Positions 3,816 to 10,731 of a DNA stretch of 33,677 nucleotides are shown here, piece by piece (the first letter of the stretch is position 1; every line of letters starts with the position of its first letter). The DNA is taken from positions 1 to 33,677 of the IMG/VR virus record IMGVR_UViG_3300032331_002075. One strand, given 5' to 3'. Below the pieces are notes generated by a model. That model made no database searches. It saw only the letters and a list, made by a program, of their open reading frames with translations, and was not told the origin of the DNA. Both the position numbers and the translations under genes were made by a program. The DNA is from a virus.

Positions 3816-4105
3816 GCCACGGCCTCCAGAAACTCCTTGACCTCGGCTGCCGAGCGGCAGACGGTAGACGGGCAGCCGTGGCCCATGAGTTCGCCCAGGC
3901 GAACTTGTTGCAGTTTCGTCGGCTCCTCGCCGGGCCGCTTGAACTCAATGAAGTAGGCCCGGCCCTCTTTCAGACACATGACGTCGGGGATGCCGGCAAG
4001 CGAATACGCCGACCCGTGGAGTTTCACGGCGTAAAAGCCGAGACTCCTTGCGACTGCCATTCCCTTGGCGACGATGCTCTTTTCAGAAGGCCGTCGCTGC
4101 GTCAT
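3812..4105 (-). CDS. VRR-NUC domain nuclease
   Basis: It has 97 residues, the usual size of a stand-alone phage VRR-NUC protein. The PD-(D/E)xK-type active site is complete: Glu8 in PSEK, Asp41 in AGIPDVM, Glu54 and Lys56 in YFIEFKRPG, followed by EEPTKLQ. Known family members cut branched or structured DNA, so a role in replication or recombination intermediates is likely. The start ATG 4105 lacks a clear Shine-Dalgarno and lies just after a CACGCC motif. Confidence 0.85.
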   Translation of the reverse strand: MTQRRPSEKSIVAKGMAVARSLGFYAVKLHGSAYSLAGIPDVMCLKEGRAYFIEFKRPGEEPTKLQQVRLGELMGHGCPSTVCRSAAEVKEFLEAVA

Positions 4106-4120
4106 GTGGTGGCGTGTGGC

Positions 4121-4465
4121 CTAGTGGGACATCCTCGTGAAGGCCATGTCCCTGCCGTTAAACACGAAGGCCGGCATCTCCCAATCTGTTCGGCCGATCT
4201 TCTCGTTGCGAGCCTTCTCTTCTTTGCATCGCCTCGCACGGCATTCAGCGGCTCGCTCCGCGATCTCCTCGGGCGTCGGGTCTTCGGGGCGTCGAAGCGT
4301 GTCGCGGCGTGTGGCCTTCGGGCGAATCGGCAGGGCGTACTTCTTCCGCAGGCTCCACAGCGAGCCGCCAGTAATCTGAAAGTGCTCGCAGAGTTCGGTG
4401 TTCGTCATGTCTGTATTCCACAAACGAAACAGTTCCGCCACATCGACGTCTCGCATCCTTGCCAT
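4121..4465 (-). CDS. HTH DNA-binding-like protein
   Basis: I chose ATG 4465 with a strong Shine-Dalgarno (AAGGAGGTCGTG), giving 114 residues. Residues about 8-45 (VAELFRLWNTDMTNTELCEH then GSLWSLRKKYALP) fit a helix-turn-helix of the kind that scans a repeat of W and LRxK positions. A linker with DPTPEEIAERAAECRARR follows, and the C-terminus is MPAFVFNGRDMAFTRMSH. It may be a small regulator of the accessory operon. DNA binding is inferred from the pattern only. Confidence 0.6.
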   Translation of the reverse strand: MARMRDVDVAELFRLWNTDMTNTELCEHFQITGGSLWSLRKKYALPIRPKATRRDTLRRPEDPTPEEIAERAAECRARRCKEEKARNEKIGRTDWEMPAFVFNGRDMAFTRMSH

Positions 4466-4710
4466 CACGACCTCCTTGGTTTGAACGACAACTCGCTCCC
4501 GAGACAGCCTCGGAGGCACATGAGAAAACCGATGAACCCGATACCGTTTCGCCACTCGGCCGCCGGCCAGCCGAGCATCGGCGGGGCGAATAAATTCCAG
4601 AACTTGGCCGCCGCAAATCCGACGAAGAACACAAAAAAGACGCCAAGGAGCATCGTGGCGAGCACGATGCCGATGATGGCTGCGAGGTTTTCCTTGTCGT
4701 CGTCTGTCAT
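4465..4710 (-). CDS. Small membrane protein
   Basis: It has 81 residues from ATG 4710, which forms an ATGA overlap with the upstream Tat-substrate gene and has GGTGGAG upstream. One long hydrophobic segment (IIGIVLATMLLGVFFVFFVG) and a second weaker one (GIGFIGFLMCLRGCLG) suggest two membrane passes, with a basic C-terminus (SFKPRRS). It lies directly downstream of a protein with a twin-arginine signal, so it may work with it in the envelope. Holin-like or superinfection-exclusion roles are possible but not shown. Confidence 0.6.
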   Translation of the reverse strand: MTDDDKENLAAIIGIVLATMLLGVFFVFFVGFAAAKFWNLFAPPMLGWPAAEWRNGIGFIGFLMCLRGCLGSELSFKPRRS

Positions 4711-5114
4711 CGCCACTCCACCTGTATTTCGTAGGTTTGCTTAGTGGTGTCGTGCAAGTTCCACACGTCGATGTTGTCGTCAGCGACGCTGGTAACCATG
4801 ACGCTGACAGGCATCCTCGTCTCGTAAATCTCGTCGGCCTTGTCATCGAGGATTGTTCGCGGAGCGTCAGGATCGTGCCTGTAGGTGACTCGCCACGACG
4901 ACGCGGCCCGAATGTCGACGGACTCTTCAAGATTCAGCACACGACACTCCTTCAGCATTTCCATCACCGTCCGCTGCGCTTCGTTCTCGATGTTTTGACG
5001 AAGCGGCTGCGCGTTGACCTTTTGGGCGATTGCCTTGGGAGTCGCGACGGCCTTCGCACCGGCTAGAGCCGAGCCGGCGGCAAGGAGAGCCTGGAGGAAG
5101 TTACGTCGTTGCAT
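4707..5114 (-). CDS. Putative Tat-exported protein
   Basis: The 135-residue protein begins MQRRNFLQALLAAGSALAGA. Arg-Arg followed by NFLQ, then a moderately hydrophobic Ala/Leu/Gly stretch ending in AKA, is a classic twin-arginine signal (R-R-x-F-L-K type) with a plausible signal-peptidase site around residues 22-25. The mature part is soluble and beta-rich, ending QTYEIQVEWR, with no recognised domain. It is one of three Tat-signal proteins in 5 kb of a phage that also encodes a TatA-like subunit. Its start overlaps the coiled-coil gene upstream by 14 bases. Confidence 0.75.
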   Translation of the reverse strand: MQRRNFLQALLAAGSALAGAKAVATPKAIAQKVNAQPLRQNIENEAQRTVMEMLKECRVLNLEESVDIRAASSWRVTYRHDPDAPRTILDDKADEIYETRMPVSVMVTSVADDNIDVWNLHDTTKQTYEIQVEWR

Positions 5115-5376
5115 CGTTCGGCCTCGAAAGTGTGGACAACAGTTCCAGCGACAGCCTTGAAATCTTCTTCTGCTGTTCGCTGCACTCGTGCTGAAGGCGG
5201 TCGTTCCGGCCCTTCAGCAACTTTATCTCCTCTTTCAAACGCTCTACCTTCCTCTGAAGCCTCTCGGCCCCCTTGCTGGCAGACCTCGCACCTTCAGAGG
5301 CACGTCGAGACGTGACCTCCCAGTGATCGGCGGCAGCCCTGGCGGCGGCCAGTTCGAGAAGGACGTAGTCGGACAC
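5101..5376 (-). CDS. Coiled-coil protein
   Basis: It has 91 residues from a GTG start with GGGAG upstream. Residues about 36-80 form an almost continuous heptad pattern rich in Lys, Glu, Leu and Arg (RLQRKVERLKEEIKLLKG), strongly suggesting a coiled coil. There is no signal or membrane segment. It overlaps the following Tat-substrate gene by 14 bases. Function unknown; it could be a scaffold or dimerising regulator. Confidence 0.6.
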   Translation of the reverse strand: MSDYVLLELAAARAAADHWEVTSRRASEGARSASKGAERLQRKVERLKEEIKLLKGRNDRLQHECSEQQKKISRLSLELLSTLSRPNDATT

Positions 5377-5379
5377 GGC

Positions 5380-5577
5380 TCACTCCCCGGTGATCCACGA
5401 CCACCAACTAACGCTGGGGCGCGGCTCTTCGGTCTTGTAGACGGTCAACAGGCCCGGCCCCACTCGCTCCATCCGCTCGATCCGGCCGCGGAGTTCGGCG
5501 ACCTGTGCGATCAGTTGGTGCAGGAGTTCGTTCGTTGACGGTTTCTTGATTGGTCGTTTCGGTGTCATGTATCCCAT
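5380..5577 (-). CDS. Small hypothetical protein
   Basis: It has 65 residues from ATG 5577; an in-frame ATG at 5568 with GGGA upstream is an alternative start. The N-terminus is basic (MTPKRPIKKPS), followed by a short amphipathic helix (ELLHQLIAQVAELRGRIERM) and a Trp-rich end (VSWWSWITGE). It may be a small membrane-peripheral or oligomeric protein. It lies just after a hairpin terminator that ends the preceding unit. Confidence 0.5.
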   Translation of the reverse strand: MGYMTPKRPIKKPSTNELLHQLIAQVAELRGRIERMERVGPGLLTVYKTEEPRPSVSWWSWITGE

Positions 5578-5603
5578 TTCTGTGAATGAGCGTCAGAAAG
5601 GAA

Positions 5604-5647
5604 CGGCGACGGGTCGAAAGCAGGAAGGGCAATACGACCCGCCGCCG
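5604..5647 (-). terminator. Putative intrinsic terminator after the secreted Cys-rich gene
   Basis: Bases 5604-5616 and 5635-5647 can pair over 13 positions, with one position that is a G-U wobble in minus-strand RNA, around an 18-base loop. In the minus direction a pyrimidine-rich run (GTTCCTTTCT) follows. It lies 9 bases beyond the stop of the gene at 5656. The tail is not a pure U tract, so strength is uncertain. Confidence 0.5.
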
Positions 5648-5655
5648 AACGTAGA

Positions 5656-5976
5656 TCACTGATAGCGGATCACGGCGATCCAACGACGACGGACGGGCGA
5701 CCATGCCACGCCTTCGTCAACGATCCGGCGAGTGCCGAAGAAACAACAATTCCGCCTCGCGGCGTCCGGCGTCGAGCCGGTTCCGATACCCTCGCACTGC
5801 CCGCAGGACGAGTGATGGAAGGCACCGCGGCCGGCGAGGAACACAGCGTGATCCTGCGCGGAGGTGACGACGACAGCGGAGCGACGCATGACGCCGCGGT
5901 CAATGACGGTGACGTCGGCGGTTGCCGCAGAGGCGAGGCCGGCGACGAACGTGAGAGCCAGAAGGATAGAACGCAT
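5656..5976 (-). CDS. Secreted Cys-rich small protein (Sec signal)
   Basis: It has 106 residues. The N-terminus MRSILLALTFVAGLASAATA is a clean Sec signal peptide with cleavage likely after ASA or ATA. The mature part carries CGQCEGIG and RRNCCFFG, four cysteines that could form disulphides or bind metal, and ends in an aromatic basic stretch. The gene appears to have its own promoter (6017-6045) and terminator (5604-5647). That arrangement is typical of morons, accessory genes expressed independently. No known enzyme motif is seen. Confidence 0.65.
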   Translation of the reverse strand: MRSILLALTFVAGLASAATADVTVIDRGVMRRSAVVVTSAQDHAVFLAGRGAFHHSSCGQCEGIGTGSTPDAARRNCCFFGTRRIVDEGVAWSPVRRRWIAVIRYQ

Positions 5977-6016
5977 CAGAACACCTCGTATCTAGGAGGG
6001 AATCGAACCACGGCGT

Positions 6017-6045
6017 ATTTTCGCGGCGTGTAGATTAGTAGTCAA
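6017..6045 (-). promoter_or_regulatory. Putative sigma-70-like promoter with CACGCC motif
   Basis: On the minus strand TTGACT (6040-6045) is followed after 17 bases by GAAAAT (6017-6022). The spacer contains CACGCC (6025-6030), the recurring intergenic motif. The -35 lies inside the end of the upstream gene and the -10 about 40 bases before the start of the secreted Cys-rich protein. The -10 is a weak match (TATAAT consensus). Confidence 0.45.
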
Positions 6046-6301
6046 GGGGAAACTCCTCTTCCTCGTCTGCCAAATCCTCGTCCGACATAACGCGAAGAAC
6101 GTACACATTGAGTTCCTTGCTGTAGCCAATCAGGCTCTCGCGAACCATGTGAACGCTGAACGCGAGGCGGCTGGCCCCGACCTCCCGGCAGAGATCGGCT
6201 TGAGCCTCGCACGCCTCGAAGACCGTGCGTAATGTTTGCTGCATGGCGACAAGCCGGCTGGCGAAGTGTTTGCGTTCCTTGGGGGTCACGCCCGAACCCA
6301 C
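6035..6301 (-). CDS. Hypothetical phage protein
   Basis: It has 88 residues from GTG 6301 with AAGGTGAAGG upstream; GTG 6289, which forms a GTGA overlap, is an alternative. The body is helical (SRLVAMQQTLRTVFEACEAQ) and the C-terminus is strongly acidic (DEDLADEEEEFPLDY). No family recognised. Its last codons overlap the -35 of a promoter for the next gene. Confidence 0.55.
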   Translation of the reverse strand: MGSGVTPKERKHFASRLVAMQQTLRTVFEACEAQADLCREVGASRLAFSVHMVRESLIGYSKELNVYVLRVMSDEDLADEEEEFPLDY

Positions 6302-6729
6302 CCTTCACCTTGCTCGCGAAACAGCACCGGCCGCAGGCCGACCTTCTTCGCCAAGAGCATCATGTGGGGATGAAACACGGCGGCGTCCGAGTCGTTCTGA
6401 AACGCTGTCGTCACGAGCCCTGCCGCGGCGAATGTGGCGACTCCACGCCAGCGGTAGTCCTTGGCGACGAAGGCTTCGAGGGTGTGCCAGTGCAGGGCAT
6501 TCGGGCCGGCTCGCCACGAGTCTTGGTTAGGCTCGACCCACGGCTCCGTCCTGGCCCAACCGATCGTCTCGCCGAAGTCCTCGACCAAAGCGATGAAGCC
6601 GTCGATCTCTTCGCCGTCGATGAGGCGTCGCTGAAAGATGCTCCCAGGCTTGCAGAGTTTCCTCACCACGAAGAGCCTGTGCGGCTCGTCGGCAACGAAC
6701 TCCTCGCCTGTGATGATCCGGCATTTCAT
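6286..6729 (-). CDS. GNAT-like acetyltransferase family protein
   Basis: It has 147 residues starting with an ATGA overlap with PhoH. The central stretch DYRWRGVATFAAAGLVTTAF resembles the acetyl-CoA loop (R/Q-x-x-G-x-G/A) of GNAT enzymes, followed by a helix and a strand-rich C-terminus (KVGLRPVLFREQGEGWVRA). ALHWHTLEAFVAKDY upstream fits the preceding strand. The motif is weaker than in textbook GNATs, so the assignment is tentative. The acceptor is unknown. Confidence 0.45.
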   Translation of the reverse strand: MKCRIITGEEFVADEPHRLFVVRKLCKPGSIFQRRLIDGEEIDGFIALVEDFGETIGWARTEPWVEPNQDSWRAGPNALHWHTLEAFVAKDYRWRGVATFAAAGLVTTAFQNDSDAAVFHPHMMLLAKKVGLRPVLFREQGEGWVRA

Positions 6730-7403
6730 CGTTCCAACTCCCGCAGGACGCCCTCGATGATCGGATTCCTGACGATGTCGGACGCCTTGAACTCGACGAC
6801 TCCGACGCCCTTGATGCCCGACAGCCGCTGCATAACGTCGACAAGCCGACGCTCCTGCCGAGGAAGGTCGCTCTGATCGGCGTCGCCAGTGACGATGACT
6901 TGAGAGTTCTGGCCGATGCGGGTCAGGAAGAGTTTCAGTTGGGCGAAACTCGCGTTCTGCGATTCATCAAAGATCATCACGCTGTTGTGGTACGTCCGAC
7001 CTCGCATGAACGCGAGCGGGGCGACCTTGATGCACGCGGCGATCTTCTCGCGGTGCTGACCCCGCTTGCCGGCGATCCTGTCAACGGCATCGAAGAACGG
7101 CACGAGGTATGGCCCGACCTTCTCCTCGGCCGAGCCCGGCAGAAACCCGAGTTGCTCCGTCGCAACGCTGGGGCGTGTGATCACGATCTGTTCTGCCCGG
7201 CCGTCGAGCACCGCCTGGACGGCATAGCCGCTCGCTAAATGCGTCTTGCCAGTGCCCGCCGGCCCGAGGACGAACGAGATCGTCGAGCGGCCGATGACGT
7301 CCAGGGCGTGAGCCTGCGCTCGCGTCTTTGCCGAGTAGCCCTCGGGCGGCGGCGGCGGCGCGGGCTTCGTGCGGGTGATCTTCTTTCGTCTCGTCCGCTT
7401 CAT
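6726..7403 (-). CDS. phoH: PhoH-like ATPase
   Basis: It has 225 residues. Walker A is GPAGTGKT (residues 47-54), Walker B is MIFDESQNAS, and QVIVTGDADQSDLP matches the conserved PhoH TGD.xQ.DLP block. VITRPSVATEQLGFLPG is also typical of the family. Phage PhoH proteins are ATPases, likely RNA helicase/nuclease-related, widespread in aquatic phages; the exact role is unsettled. The N-terminus is basic and Pro-rich. It lies in an overlapping run with GNAT-like and conserved hypothetical genes. Confidence 0.92.
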   Translation of the reverse strand: MKRTRRKKITRTKPAPPPPPEGYSAKTRAQAHALDVIGRSTISFVLGPAGTGKTHLASGYAVQAVLDGRAEQIVITRPSVATEQLGFLPGSAEEKVGPYLVPFFDAVDRIAGKRGQHREKIAACIKVAPLAFMRGRTYHNSVMIFDESQNASFAQLKLFLTRIGQNSQVIVTGDADQSDLPRQERRLVDVMQRLSGIKGVGVVEFKASDIVRNPIIEGVLRELER

Positions 7404-7663
7404 CGAAGTACCTTGATGTAGATCGGGCCGTTGGGGCCGACGTAAGCCCCCAGAGTGTTGAAGCCGAGGAACTCGTCAGCATCCTCCGCGCTCATGCCGT
7501 CTCGCCTCACGAGCACGGCAACGCACTTGTCGTAGTCGTAAACAACGACTTGCGCGGAGTGGTGATTCATCGTGTAGCCGATCGCCGCGTCTTCGAGCCC
7601 GTCAGCGACGATGGCGTCGGGGTTCACTTCAGCGACGATTTCGGCGAGTTCGTCGAATGTCAT
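7400..7663 (-). CDS. Conserved phage hypothetical protein
   Basis: I chose ATG 7663 with GGGGGTG upstream, giving 87 residues; GTG 7678 is a possible longer start. The pattern is familiar from many phages: VADGLEDAAIGYT, VVVYDYDKCVAVLV, then FNTLGAYVGPNGPIYI at the C-terminus. The family has no assigned function that I know. It overlaps the phoH start as ATGA. Confidence 0.75.
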   Translation of the reverse strand: MTFDELAEIVAEVNPDAIVADGLEDAAIGYTMNHHSAQVVVYDYDKCVAVLVRRDGMSAEDADEFLGFNTLGAYVGPNGPIYIKVLR

Positions 7664-7678
7664 CTCACGCACCCCCAC

Positions 7679-7981
7679 TTATTCGGAGAGCATCTCCGCG
7701 ATCTCTCGGAGTTTCATCGCGACCAGTTCGTGATTCGGCACGATCGCCGACTCTTCGATCTCGTCGGCGGCGTCGAGTAGTTGGTCGGCAATGGCCTCGG
7801 CGGTGTCGTCGTCAACGTCGATTTCCGAATCTTCATCGTCGATGTCGATTTCGAGGTCGTCGTCGTTGTCGATGAGGATGGCCTCCTCGATGTCGATGAG
7901 TCTCAAGTCGATCGTCTTCAGGCGGTCAAGAACGTGGGCCAGGGTTGACATGATCAGGACGTGCGAATTGACGGAAACCAT
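7679..7981 (-). CDS. Highly acidic hypothetical protein
   Basis: It has 100 residues from ATG 7981 with GAGGTGAT upstream; ATG at 7951 is a later option. The centre (DNDDDLEIDIDDEDSEIDVD) is nearly all Asp and Glu with an imperfect internal repeat, flanked by helical parts. Such acidity is seen in DNA-mimic and inhibitor proteins and in calcium-binding regions, but no specific function follows. It lies between the phoH run and a Tat-signal protein. Confidence 0.6.
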   Translation of the reverse strand: MVSVNSHVLIMSTLAHVLDRLKTIDLRLIDIEEAILIDNDDDLEIDIDDEDSEIDVDDDTAEAIADQLLDAADEIEESAIVPNHELVAMKLREIAEMLSE

Positions 7982-7984
7982 GAA

Positions 7985-8380
7985 TCACCTCGTGCAGATG
8001 GAAAAAACAACTTCGACGCCGGAGTAACCGTTGAACACAATGACCTCGTCGACCACGATCAGGCCGCGGTCGTACATACCCATGAGCGTCTCGTGGCGAG
8101 GTTGCTCTGCCACCGCGCCGGGGATGGCCGGCAGATAGACGGCCCGGTAGTCGCCGTGAACGTGCGTCGTCACACCCAGGAGACGCATCGAGCCGTCGCG
8201 AAGGCAGTCGATCAGCGTCCGCTCGAAGATGCTTCGCTCGTCCAGCAACTTCGTCAGTTCGGCCGTGACGCCAGCCGGCTCGACTTTGTCGCAGCACGAC
8301 CAGTTCGGAGACGCAGCCTTTACGGCGGCCCCGGCGGCGGCAAACGATGCGATGGCGGCGAGAAAGTCGCGGCGAAGCAT
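7985..8380 (-). CDS. Putative Tat-exported protein
   Basis: I chose ATG 8380 (TGATG overlap with the 37-residue gene upstream), giving 131 residues. It begins MLRRDFLAAIASFAAAGAAV: Arg-Arg-Asp-Phe-Leu followed by an Ala-rich hydrophobic core and a KAAS cleavage region, a strong twin-arginine signal. The mature part has an adjacent Cys pair (WSCCDK) and a C-terminal beta-rich section (GLIVVDEVIVFNGYSGVEVV). No enzyme family recognised. It is the second of three Tat-signal proteins near the phage TatA-like gene. Confidence 0.75.
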   Translation of the reverse strand: MLRRDFLAAIASFAAAGAAVKAASPNWSCCDKVEPAGVTAELTKLLDERSIFERTLIDCLRDGSMRLLGVTTHVHGDYRAVYLPAIPGAVAEQPRHETLMGMYDRGLIVVDEVIVFNGYSGVEVVFSICTR

Positions 8381-8493
8381 CAGTCGTCGTCTCCCCAAAA
8401 AGTCGTGTTAGGAAGGAGCGTGATCCATACTGAAATGCCGACGAGCGAGAGCACGACGGCGATGTTCAGCCAGATATTCGTGTAGTCATCCAT
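8380..8493 (-). CDS. 37-residue single-pass membrane protein
   Basis: ATG 8493, preceded by AAGGA, encodes MDDYTNIWLNIAVVLSLVG then SVWITLLPNTTFWGDDD. There is one hydrophobic segment with an acidic C-terminus. The stop overlaps the start of the Tat-signal gene as TGATG, so the two are likely translated together. A small partner or regulator of export is possible. The gene is short, but the Shine-Dalgarno and coupling support it. Confidence 0.55.
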   Translation of the reverse strand: MDDYTNIWLNIAVVLSLVGISVWITLLPNTTFWGDDD

Positions 8494-8523
8494 GACGTTG
8501 TTCCTTGCGTGAGGTGCGGCCTA

Positions 8524-8560
8524 CGCCGGCGGTTGGTGGGAGAATCACCAACCGCCGGCG
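8524..8560 (-). terminator. Strong 15-bp hairpin downstream of the Ig-like gene
   Basis: Bases 8524-8538 and 8546-8560 are perfect inverted repeats (CGCCGGCGGTTGGTG and its complement) with a 7-base loop, starting 11 bases past the stop of the gene at 8571. No U tract follows on the minus strand, so it may end transcription weakly or protect the RNA 3' end. Confidence 0.5.
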
Positions 8561-8570
8561 GGCCTACGAA

Positions 8571-8864
8571 TCACTCCTCGCGAGCGAGGGTGACGCCGAA
8601 CGATCCCGGCTGGGCCGGCGGGATGGTGTCGGTCGCGACGAAGTCGAGGACCGCGGCCTGACTGCGATTCCCCGCGTCGTCGACATCAACGAGCGAGAGG
8701 GTGACGTTCGCGTTCTGCTCGACCTTCACCTCGCCCAGGTCGGTGGCCGACCCCGCGAGTTCGACGGTCGAGAGAACCTCGCCGTTTACCACAACCGTCA
8801 ACTGACGGCCGGTGACGTCAGCGTCAACGGCAGGACCGGCAGAAACCGAGTAAACAAGTGCCAT
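8571..8864 (-). CDS. Small Ig/Fn3-like protein
   Basis: ATG 8864 with AGGAG 9 bases upstream gives 97 residues. The sequence is beta-rich with a typical Ig/Fn3 end (VDVDDAGNRSQ, then TDTIPPAQPG), and the start MALVYSVSAG resembles small Ig-like proteins of aquatic phages. A longer frame back to 8990 exists, but it covers a 21-bp palindrome, so I take that part as non-coding. The gene has its own operator-like palindrome upstream and a hairpin downstream, suggesting a separately controlled unit. A virion decoration or adhesion role is possible. Confidence 0.7.
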   Translation of the reverse strand: MALVYSVSAGPAVDADVTGRQLTVVVNGEVLSTVELAGSATDLGEVKVEQNANVTLSLVDVDDAGNRSQAAVLDFVATDTIPPAQPGSFGVTLAREE

Positions 8865-8906
8865 ACTAGTTGGCTCCTGAAAAGACAATCGAACACAAAC
8901 CAATGG

Positions 8907-8927
8907 CTTGCGATGACTCATCGCAAG
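8907..8927. promoter_or_regulatory. 21-bp perfect palindrome (operator-like)
   Basis: CTTGCGATGA, one central base, then its exact complement form a 21-base perfect palindrome in the 122-base gap between MazG and the Ig-like gene. It looks like a binding site for a dimeric repressor. No consensus promoter is clear beside it. Confidence 0.5.
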
Positions 8928-8986
8928 ACCACGAATCGCGGAAGTGAGTGTGGCGATCTCACGAGAGAGGCCGCCGAAAAACCAGT

Positions 8987-9295
8987 TCATGCCTGTTTGA
9001 CGAATACGCCCTCCGGTGTGAGGAAGCCCTTGCGATCCCTGATCTGGTCGTAGGCTGCCTGAAGGGCCGTTTCGAGCGGCACAAACTGTAGTGCCGAGTA
9101 GATAATCAGCGTCACGAGGACGTCGCCGATGCCGTCGATGATATCCGCGCGGTCGTTCTTGAGCGTGGCGTCGGCCAGTTCGCCCAACTCCGACATGGTC
9201 TTCATCAGTTGCGGCATGGGCTTACTGTGCTGAAGGATGCTTCGATCCTCGGCCCATTGCTCGACGTTTTCGATGAGTTCGTCGATCTTGCTCAT
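8987..9295 (-). CDS. MazG-like nucleotide pyrophosphohydrolase
   Basis: ATG 9295 (ATGA overlap with the TatA-like gene) gives 102 residues. The all-alpha NTP-PPase motif is present: SELGELADA (Glu36, Glu39) and ADIIDGIGDVLVTL (Asp54, Asp58), the metal site of the MazG/dUTPase-like superfamily. Phage members cleave nucleoside triphosphates or alarmones; the substrate here is not known. It fits with the dNMP kinase and dCMP deaminase further right as a nucleotide-handling gene. Confidence 0.8.
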   Translation of the reverse strand: MSKIDELIENVEQWAEDRSILQHSKPMPQLMKTMSELGELADATLKNDRADIIDGIGDVLVTLIIYSALQFVPLETALQAAYDQIRDRKGFLTPEGVFVKQA

Positions 9296-9480
9296 GCCTG
9301 CACCTTGTGCTCGATGGCCTTCTCGATCTCCTTGCACTCGGCTTCGACTTCGAGGAAGCCCCGCTTGAACTCAACGATCGACTGTCCGACGCTGCGGGCC
9401 ACCTTCGGCAGCCGACCGCCGAACAGCATCACCGCGATGCTTCCGATCATCACCATCTCAACTGTTCCGATTCCGAACAT
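9292..9480 (-). CDS. TatA/E-like twin-arginine translocase subunit
   Basis: ATG 9480 has a strong Shine-Dalgarno (AAGGAGCGAGCA) and gives 62 residues. It matches TatA point by point: a short N-terminal membrane helix with polar Glu8 (MFGIGTVEMVMIGSIAVML), the FG hinge at 20-21, then the amphipathic helix RLPKVARSVGQSIVEFKRG and a charged tail. TatA oligomers form the transport path in the bacterial Tat system with TatC, which is not in this window and would be supplied by the host. Its start lies inside the end of a Tat-substrate gene (23-base overlap), and two further Tat-signal genes are close. A holin-like use of the membrane helix is an alternative. Confidence 0.85.
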   Translation of the reverse strand: MFGIGTVEMVMIGSIAVMLFGGRLPKVARSVGQSIVEFKRGFLEVEAECKEIEKAIEHKVQA

Positions 9481-9763
9481 TGCTCGCTCCTTCGATTTCA
9501 AAGACGTCCAACTCCAAATACTCCGGCAGGACGAACGCCATCGCGTCGGAGAATCCATGTGCATCGAGCATCGACCTGACTTCTGTCCGCAAGTTGTCGA
9601 TCGCGGCCTGCGGAGCCGGCCGAGTCAGCCGGAAGGCAAAGGCGACTCGGGTGTCCTTGCGATCGGGCGATGCCACCTCGGCCACGCTGGCCTTGACAGT
9701 GGCGAACGCACCTAGTGCGGTGAACGGGAGAGCCTTCAGGAGTGAGCGGCGTGCGTCGTTCAT
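9458..9763 (-). CDS. Putative Tat-exported protein, coupled to TatA
   Basis: It has 101 residues. The N-terminus MNDARRSLLKALPFTALGAF contains Arg-Arg-Ser-Leu-Leu-Lys, a near-ideal twin-arginine motif, then a hydrophobic stretch ending in KASVA, a likely cleavage site. The mature part is soluble with no cysteines and a beta-like end (LELDVFEIEGASN). It overlaps the TatA-like gene by 23 bases, so the two are probably translated together. That is the best clue that the phage TatA serves this cargo. Function of the cargo is unknown. Confidence 0.75.
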   Translation of the reverse strand: MNDARRSLLKALPFTALGAFATVKASVAEVASPDRKDTRVAFAFRLTRPAPQAAIDNLRTEVRSMLDAHGFSDAMAFVLPEYLELDVFEIEGASNVRNRNS

Positions 9764-10038
9764 TTCTTCAGCGACTCCATGAGCCTCTTGATCTCTTTCG
9801 CCTGTTCCTCGGGCGACAGCGGTCGGCGGCGCTCACCGTTGGCGTAGAGAAACTCGACCATCACGCAGCCGGCGGCGGCGACGACGGTCTTTCCGAACTC
9901 CTCTGGGCCGAGGAGCCCTTCCTGGCAGCGGTCGGCCATCGCGACGGACATCGCCTTGACCAGTTCAAAGAAGCGGTCGTCGCGCGGTTTCGGAACGTGC
10001 CAGTAGGAGTATGGAACAGTCGAGTAGTCGTAGTTCAC
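9760..10038 (-). CDS. Hypothetical protein downstream of csrA
   Basis: It has 92 residues with a GTG start overlapping the csrA stop as GTGA. The N-terminus is Tyr-rich (MNYDYSTVPYSYWHVPKP), the middle is helical with KTVVAAAGCVMVEFLYANG, and the end is a charged helix (EEQAKEIKRLMESLKK). No membrane segment or known family. Being coupled to csrA and the Tat cargo gene, it belongs to the same expression unit. Confidence 0.6.
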   Translation of the reverse strand: MNYDYSTVPYSYWHVPKPRDDRFFELVKAMSVAMADRCQEGLLGPEEFGKTVVAAAGCVMVEFLYANGERRRPLSPEEQAKEIKRLMESLKK

Positions 10039-10211
10039 GTCGCCGCCTCCTTGGCCTTCGCTCGAACGAGGAGTTCCTCGCGGACGATGTTGAGGTGCCT
10101 CGGAGCGTCGATGGCAATGCGAACGGCACCCTCTTCGATGCGAGTGACCATGACCCAGATACTGGGTCCGATCTTCACACGTTCTCCGACTCGGCGAGAA
10201 ATAACGAGCAT
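10035..10211 (-). CDS. csrA: CsrA/RsmA carbon storage regulator
   Basis: ATG 10211 with GGAG upstream gives 58 residues: MLVISRRVGERVKIG, IWVMVTRIEEGAVRIAI, DAPRHLNIVREELL. These are the hallmarks of CsrA: the MLV.(S/T)R(K/R)VGE start, IG, the VRI.I.AP strand and Arg44 in the REE region, a key RNA-contact residue. CsrA binds GGA in leader RNAs and blocks or stabilises mRNAs. A phage copy could reset host metabolism or regulate phage transcripts. It opens an operon with the hypothetical gene, a Tat cargo and TatA. Confidence 0.92.
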   Translation of the reverse strand: MLVISRRVGERVKIGPSIWVMVTRIEEGAVRIAIDAPRHLNIVREELLVRAKAKEAAT

Positions 10212-10251
10212 TGCTGACTCCGTTCAGCGATCTAGTGTCGTGGCGTGAAGA

Positions 10252-10731
10252 TTAACTGACGGCCGCGACTCGGGTCAATAGGAACTTCTCGCAGGCTTCT
10301 CGAACCGACGGCCGCCTGTGCTCCTTGGCCGCCCACTCGACATAGTCGCGGCCTCGGGGGAGGTCGAAGGCTTCCTCAACCGTCTTGCCGGAGAAGCGGC
10401 CGTCGTTGAAGACGAATCCTTTCTCCCTCGGCTTCAGATGGCCGGCGATTGCAGGATGCCACTGTTTCAATCCGCAGAAGCAGCACTCGATCTGCCACTC
10501 CCGGCCCTCCTCCTCGACGATGTCCATGCAGGATGCCAGACAGCGGTGGCACTCCACGACGTTGTCGAGGCGTCCCAGGATCACCGCCGGGCGGGCCAGG
10601 AGTACCGCCAGGGCGTCGCCGACCGGCTGCGGCGGTTCGGGGGTGGTGGAGGGAACAGGGGCTGGCTTCTTGCGGCCCTTCCTCTTCGGCGAGGAGTCGG
10701 GATCGTCCGTTGGCGAGGTGTCGAAGAGCAT
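10252..10731 (-). CDS. Phage protein with zinc-ribbon-like Cys pairs
   Basis: ATG 10731 (MLFDTSPTDDPDS) gives 159 residues; a longer frame back past the intergenic region is not favoured. A Pro-rich basic linker (KRKGRKKPAPVPSTTPEPPQ) leads to VVECHRCLASCMDI and WQIECCFCGLKQW, four or more cysteines that could hold a zinc ion. The C-terminus (FNDGRFSGKTVEEAFDLPRG) resembles a small domain seen next to exonuclease folds and in phage conserved proteins. A nucleic-acid role is plausible, not shown. Confidence 0.6.
   Translation of the reverse strand: MLFDTSPTDDPDSSPKRKGRKKPAPVPSTTPEPPQPVGDALAVLLARPAVILGRLDNVVECHRCLASCMDIVEEEGREWQIECCFCGLKQWHPAIAGHLKPREKGFVFNDGRFSGKTVEEAFDLPRGRDYVEWAAKEHRRPSVREACEKFLLTRVAAVS

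Follow-up and report, generated by a model that had tools for sequence, protein, structure and literature searches.

The linear viral record IMGVR_UViG_3300032331_002075 from IMG/VR, analysed over its whole length of 33,677 bases (hereafter, the window), carries a gene for a protein of the TatA family and three genes with twin-arginine (RR) N-termini, all located in one minus-strand operon of small accessory genes at ~4.4–10.9 kb. The four genes are real, as first observed: the original prediction, made from the sequence without database searches, reported a TatA-like gene at 9292–9480 and RR-x-F/L-L N-termini in the genes at 4707, 7985, and 9458, and all of these were confirmed on the minus strand. 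They quite probably form a partial twin-arginine translocation (Tat) module, in which the phage provides its own TatA and its own cargoes and works with the TatC of its host. Support for this interpretation is good for everything short of transport itself, and the pattern suggests that the phage boosts host Tat export in order to send out proteins of its own.

TatA-Family Protein

The 62-aa product of tatA (MFGIGTVEMVMIGSIAVMLFGGRLPKVARSVGQSIVEFKRGFLEVEAECKEIEKAIEHKVQA; 9292–9480, minus strand) comprises a short N-terminal transmembrane helix followed by an amphipathic helix, with Glu8, a Phe20-Gly21 hinge, RLPKVARS at the start of the amphipathic helix, and Phe38. It matched the Pfam family TatA_B_E (PF02416) with 35.3 bits (cut-off 21), as did 10 of 10 viral TatA family members. 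The solved structures found by the TatA profile (7b7o, 9e07, 2l16, 2lzr, 2lzs, 2mn6, 2mn7, and the TatB structure 9e03) were TatA/TatB chains only. The comparison with TatA/E families proposed together with the original prediction distinguished the protein from a generic membrane peptide. The residues E8, F20, G21, L24, P25, and F38 were invariant in 10 sequences (the window and nine viral contigs). The ratio of non-synonymous to synonymous polymorphism (pN/pS) over the TatA helices ranged from 0.09 to 0.39; judged from the sequences, the phage TatA is under purifying selection. Gln8 and Phe39 are essential in E. coli TatA (PMC4148689), and Phe39 corresponds to the phage F38 in the alignment made here. 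A polar residue limiting the TatA helix has also been described (PMC13186574).

The relatives of the window TatA in IMG/VR contigs showed 48–85% identity, and two more were reached via a neighbouring gene; further IMG/VR records contained a TatA of the same clade with ~71–85% identity. The protein is among the best conserved of these phages (71–85% identity at the compared loci vs. 30–60% for several neighbours). A scan with the helicase for further relatives returned one contig, which was already known. The window TatA had no tblastn match among 50,697 isolated phage records. Other TatAs gave weak matches to isolated phages (best E 2e-4), mostly in 'phage' records of Listeria and Staphylococcus that lack annotation, and these matches are possibly host DNA.

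Candidate Twin-Arginine Cargo Genes

Cargo A (101 aa, RR N-terminus MNDARRSLLKALPFTALGAF; 9458–9763, minus strand) is encoded directly upstream of tatA and overlaps its start by 23 bases. Cargo B (135 aa, RR N-terminus MQRRNFLQALLAAG, start MQRRNFLQALLAAGSALAGAKA; 4707–5114, minus strand) has the RR motif and belongs to a protein family, and cargo C (131 aa from ATG, RR N-terminus MLRRDFLAAIASFAAAG, start MLRRDFLAAIASFAAAGAAVKAAS; 7985–8380, minus strand) combines the motif with a hydrophobic core. The cores of the three N-termini are mostly charge-free and moderately hydrophobic. Cargoes A and B were below the membrane-span hydropathy threshold, while cargo C was above it, as was the Sec-type product of the gene at 5656. 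The three RR N-termini among the 58 genes of the window compare with 0.13 expected from N-terminal shuffles.

The family of cargo A comprises six members with 23–43% identity, in which R5, R6, and P80 are the sole invariant residues; its genes are located upstream of tatA in the window, L004, L008, L009, L013, and L033/L034. The family of cargo B includes seven members with 22–33% identity and the invariant residues R3, R4, F6, L54, Y78, and P102. The RR pair has outlasted nearly all other cargo sequence, for which there is hardly another explanation than that Tat targeting has been selected. No homologue of cargo C was found in the phage set; the expected conservation of the N-termini in relatives was borne out for cargoes A and B. 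The mature part of cargo B was predicted by AlphaFold as alpha-beta-beta-alpha-beta-beta, with a mean predicted local distance difference test (pLDDT) score of 72; a fold search with this model returned no relative at E ≤ 0.001, and comparison with PDB sequences gave no convincing one. Cargo A was modelled, weakly, as a small beta-alpha-beta unit (pLDDT 61). The cargoes have no recognisable family or fold.

Linkage and Co-Occurrence of tatA and Cargo Genes

Conservation of the cluster in related phages, suggested as a check of the original prediction, was observed. The immediate neighbour of tatA was a Tat-signal gene in 10 of 11 non-redundant TatA-positive records, the unrelated record L010 included, whereas 200,000 simulations of random placement averaged 0.63 such records and never exceeded 6. 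The overlap between the reading frames of cargo A and tatA recurs in L004, L008, and L009. The slot beside tatA is taken by differing cargo families (L005–L007 vs. the window, L004, and L008), and the sole Tat-signal gene of L010 comes straight after its tatA.

A refined cargo scan, allowing alternative starts, compared 13 TatA-positive records with 13 TatA-negative relatives. Tat-signal genes numbered 22 among 874 genes in the former (1.7 expected by shuffling) and one among 609 genes in the latter (1.0 expected). At least one was present in 13 of 13 TatA-positive records, with that of L006 (9308) counted from an alternative gene call of the same contig. Each TatA-positive phage has from one to four cargo genes, mostly in one translationally coupled operon. 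An earlier claim, based on a strict motif filter, that Tat signals are confined to TatA-positive phages was dropped; the filter had missed MDRRGFLQRLASAAAAM in a TatA-negative phage (G014/L036), so it was relaxed and the claim weakened. The candidates in L174, L212/L213, G021, and G022 were rejected as alternative starts of ordinary proteins.

The 266-aa protein of the replication block (called 'SSB-like' here as a label only) was used as a family marker. Sixty loci were collected, and 52 records had enough downstream sequence; cargoes were present in 11 of 11 TatA-positive and 3 of 41 TatA-negative records (Fisher p 6e-9, relatedness ignored). On the tree of the SSB-like protein, TatA changed state eight times, and cargoes never moved the opposite way. 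In independent pairs, the cargo followed TatA in 3.9 of five on average and never the reverse.

Host Affinity and Absence of TatC

All 12 of the 12 bacterial TatA matches belonged to metagenome-assembled genomes of Planctomycetota, and 355 of 392 Planctomycetota genomes encode their own TatA. The core phage TatAs formed one clade (support 98/95) nested in the Planctomycetota TatAs, in a short tree of 57 columns where some long branches meet. A related prophage (L132/L133; G339 C1, ~1.385–1.402 Mb) was found within a planctomycete chromosome, on a Planctomycetota contig of 7.77 Mb; it encodes homologues of the SSB-like protein, primase, both helicases, CsrA, and VRR-NUC protein, and no TatA was seen among its genes. 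The prophage could thereby offer a tractable TatA-negative comparison. The TatA-positive phage group probably infects planctomycete bacteria.

L010 and L135 represent separate viral TatA cases in the tree. Judged by eye, L010 is an unrelated larger phage contig with sigma factor, deformylase-like, and ribonucleotide-reductase-like genes; its differing TatA and the Tat-signal gene directly after it occupy 9974–10669. L135 is an AT-rich 75-kb viral contig, in which a TatA-like open reading frame of ~50 aa (~3981–4130) is 62% identical to planctomycete TatA.

TatC (PF00902) had no match in the 15 viral records tested, which covered every TatA-positive record except the near-copy L034 and included many fragments; a control search found it in 11 of 14 cellular genomes. 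TatC was thus not found encoded with TatA, as it would be in a complete autonomous Tat translocase, and host TatC would be needed. The reliance on host TatC assumed in the original prediction is consistent with this result.

Assessment of the Proposed Module and Alternative Explanations

Several results weigh against the partial Tat module. The window TatA scored 38.1 bits with the NCBIfam tatAE model (TIGR01411), under the curated cut-off of 53.9. This model was preferred over that of TatB (24.6 bits), and since each score was under its curated cut-off, the protein was filed in the TatA/B/E family with no curated subfamily. Of the Tat-signal models, TIGR01409 and PF10518 gave cargo B sub-cut-off scores of 15.7 (cut-off 16.7) and 15.2 (cut-off 22.7), respectively, and left cargoes A and C unmatched. 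The three products are therefore called Tat-type candidates, and their assignment is based on the motif itself, their low hydrophobicity, and their conservation. The independent-pair test is small, with five supported pairs and a median sign-test p of 0.125. L135 had no credible Tat cargo. Tat-like cargo genes occur in L036, L167, L181, and L191, which lack TatA; most viral records are fragments, and no TatA was found in whole-record searches of the TatA-negative records, many of them fragmentary. Host TatA can presumably serve such cargoes, and the viral TatA is probably helpful, as an enhancer or adaptor, rather than strictly required.

These four records also agree with an alternative in which TatA and the cargoes were acquired independently in a hypervariable region, their association reflecting host type or gene exchange, and host Tat alone is used. 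Many genes of the region do vary between relatives, and the independent-pair test is underpowered. Such an origin is nevertheless unlikely, given the adjacency in 10 of 11 records, the overlapping reading frames of cargo and tatA, the differing cargo families found beside tatA, and the same pairing in the unrelated L010. A role of the TatA-like protein as a membrane permeabiliser of the holin or pinholin type, acting in lysis or membrane depolarisation while the RR proteins use host Tat independently, is very improbable. Its small size and its layout, one short membrane helix and then an amphipathic one, do recall some holins, and those of the BhlA/TpeE type are similar in size and helix arrangement and unrelated in sequence (PMC9527704). 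However, where TatA has its essential positions, TpeE is reported to differ (PMC9527704); in the phage protein these positions are invariant. The TatA-specific residues are strongly constrained and all members match TatA_B_E, while the window protein matched neither PHROG nor a Pfam holin family. In addition, the gene tracks Tat-signal genes and not lysis genes, its neighbours being CsrA, MazG-like, and Tat-signal genes.

The conserved, full-length transmembrane and amphipathic helices with their essential positions kept also argue against a decoy or dominant-negative TatA, which would bind host TatC and block or re-target export, e.g., hiding Tat-dependent surface proteins from other phages. 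Such a role would fit the lack of a detected viral TatC and the modular nature of the TatA subunit; whether a foreign TatA is compatible depends on the membrane helix it has, and a heterologous TatA can lack activity in a translocon that is not its own (PMC5562801). Yet the phage TatA is co-selected with the phage's own Tat cargoes, so a pure inhibitor would be self-defeating, and a decoy is regarded as highly unlikely.

Comparison with Known Tat Systems

Cellular TatA/TatE proteins (PF02416), which act in TatABC or minimal TatAC systems, likewise combine a short transmembrane helix, polar at residue 8, with an FG hinge and an amphipathic helix bearing a conserved Phe, and the nearest relatives of the phage TatA are the cellular TatAs of Planctomycetota. 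The phage protein differs from them in being virus-borne, ~62 aa long with a short C-terminal tail, unaccompanied by another Tat gene in the record, and associated with viral cargo partners. A minimal two-component Tat system of Bacillus, cited in PMC9527704, consists of TatAd-Cd with the substrate PhoD. There, as in the phage, a translocase gene adjoins a substrate gene for dedicated export, which is a prediction in the case of the phage; unlike the phage module, which must borrow TatC, the Bacillus system carries its own. In Campylobacter jejuni, differing substrates depend on the differing paralogues TatA1 and TatA2 (PMC4148689). The phage TatA would similarly be a second TatA in one cell. 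Unlike in C. jejuni, the additional TatA is phage-borne and is encoded next to its presumed substrates.

Proposed Mechanism and Implications

Tat transport requires TatC, which reads the RR signal, and the recruitment of many TatA copies (PMC9527704). In an infected or lysogenic cell, the RR signals of the phage cargoes would be read by host TatC, with any host TatB, and viral TatA may add to or partly replace host TatA in the assembled translocon. Without a TatC of its own, the phage protein could raise the amount of the TatA pool or shift its substrate preference on a compatible host TatC, serving the phage cargoes, as we infer. Folded cargoes would then arrive in the planctomycete periplasm even when host substrates compete with them or host TatA is falling. 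The more specific version, a 'borrowed-core' module of Planctomycetota phages, whose virus-adapted TatA attaches to host TatC and, during infection, favours the export of swappable folded viral effectors through the inner membrane, is put forward tentatively, with a little less than an even chance of being correct. The genes near the cargoes include some for small membrane proteins and one for an exported protein of the Sec type, from which a change of the envelope or the exclusion of other phages is guessed as the purpose of the cargoes; the original prediction had proposed export of phage envelope proteins.

Host Sec is a known route by which phages export proteins for lysis and exclusion. 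That one phage brings a Tat component along with Tat-addressed proteins implies a need for folded proteins outside the cytoplasm, and it would place TatA supply or specificity under viral selection. Such a phage would also provide a natural setting in which to ask whether substrate preference is conferred by TatA paralogues, as well as access to the biology of planctomycete phages, of which little is known. If true, a secretion strategy of the borrowed-core kind would be previously undescribed among viruses. A description of phage TatA was not found in the open-access literature searched, in agreement with the original remark that no well-described phage system of this kind is known; the 'tata' text matches in phage papers were promoter sequences, not TatA.

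Phage Genome and Accessory Operon

Almost every gene of the window is on the minus strand. The replication block contains a UvrD-like helicase, a Prim-Pol primase, an SNF2-like helicase, the 266-aa protein, and an integrase, and a GDSL hydrolase is encoded in the apparent tail region. In the accessory operon, a CsrA-like regulator (10035–10211, minus strand; Pfam CsrA 64.9 bits) is an upstream neighbour of the tatA genes, with synteny kept in relatives, and may exert post-transcriptional control of the tatA operon. Nearly all relatives keep a CsrA-like gene next to the tatA region, and the G339 planctomycete prophage has one as well. Between csrA and cargo A lies a gene for a 92-aa protein with no assigned function (9760–10038, minus strand), which accompanies cargo A in L004, L008, and L009.

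The operon also encodes a Sec-type exported protein of 106 aa with conserved cysteines (MRSILLALTFVAGLASAATA; 5656–5976, minus strand), recognised by hydropathy, its signal being more hydrophobic than the Tat-type ones. Its homologues adjoin tatA in L002, L003, and L013. It is common to TatA-positive and TatA-negative relatives and, unlike the Tat cargoes, does not track TatA. A 37-aa protein with a single membrane span (8380–8493, minus strand) is kept in the accessory region of relatives, and an 81-aa protein with two membrane spans (4465–4710, minus strand) adjoins cargo B, as do its homologues in G011 and G014. The other genes of the operon include those for a PhoH-like ATPase (6726–7403, minus strand) and a MazG-like pyrophosphatase (8987–9295, minus strand). 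In the accessory region of the TatA-positive phage L013, a trypsin-like serine protease (8233–8952) that carries a Sec-type signal was noticed by eye.

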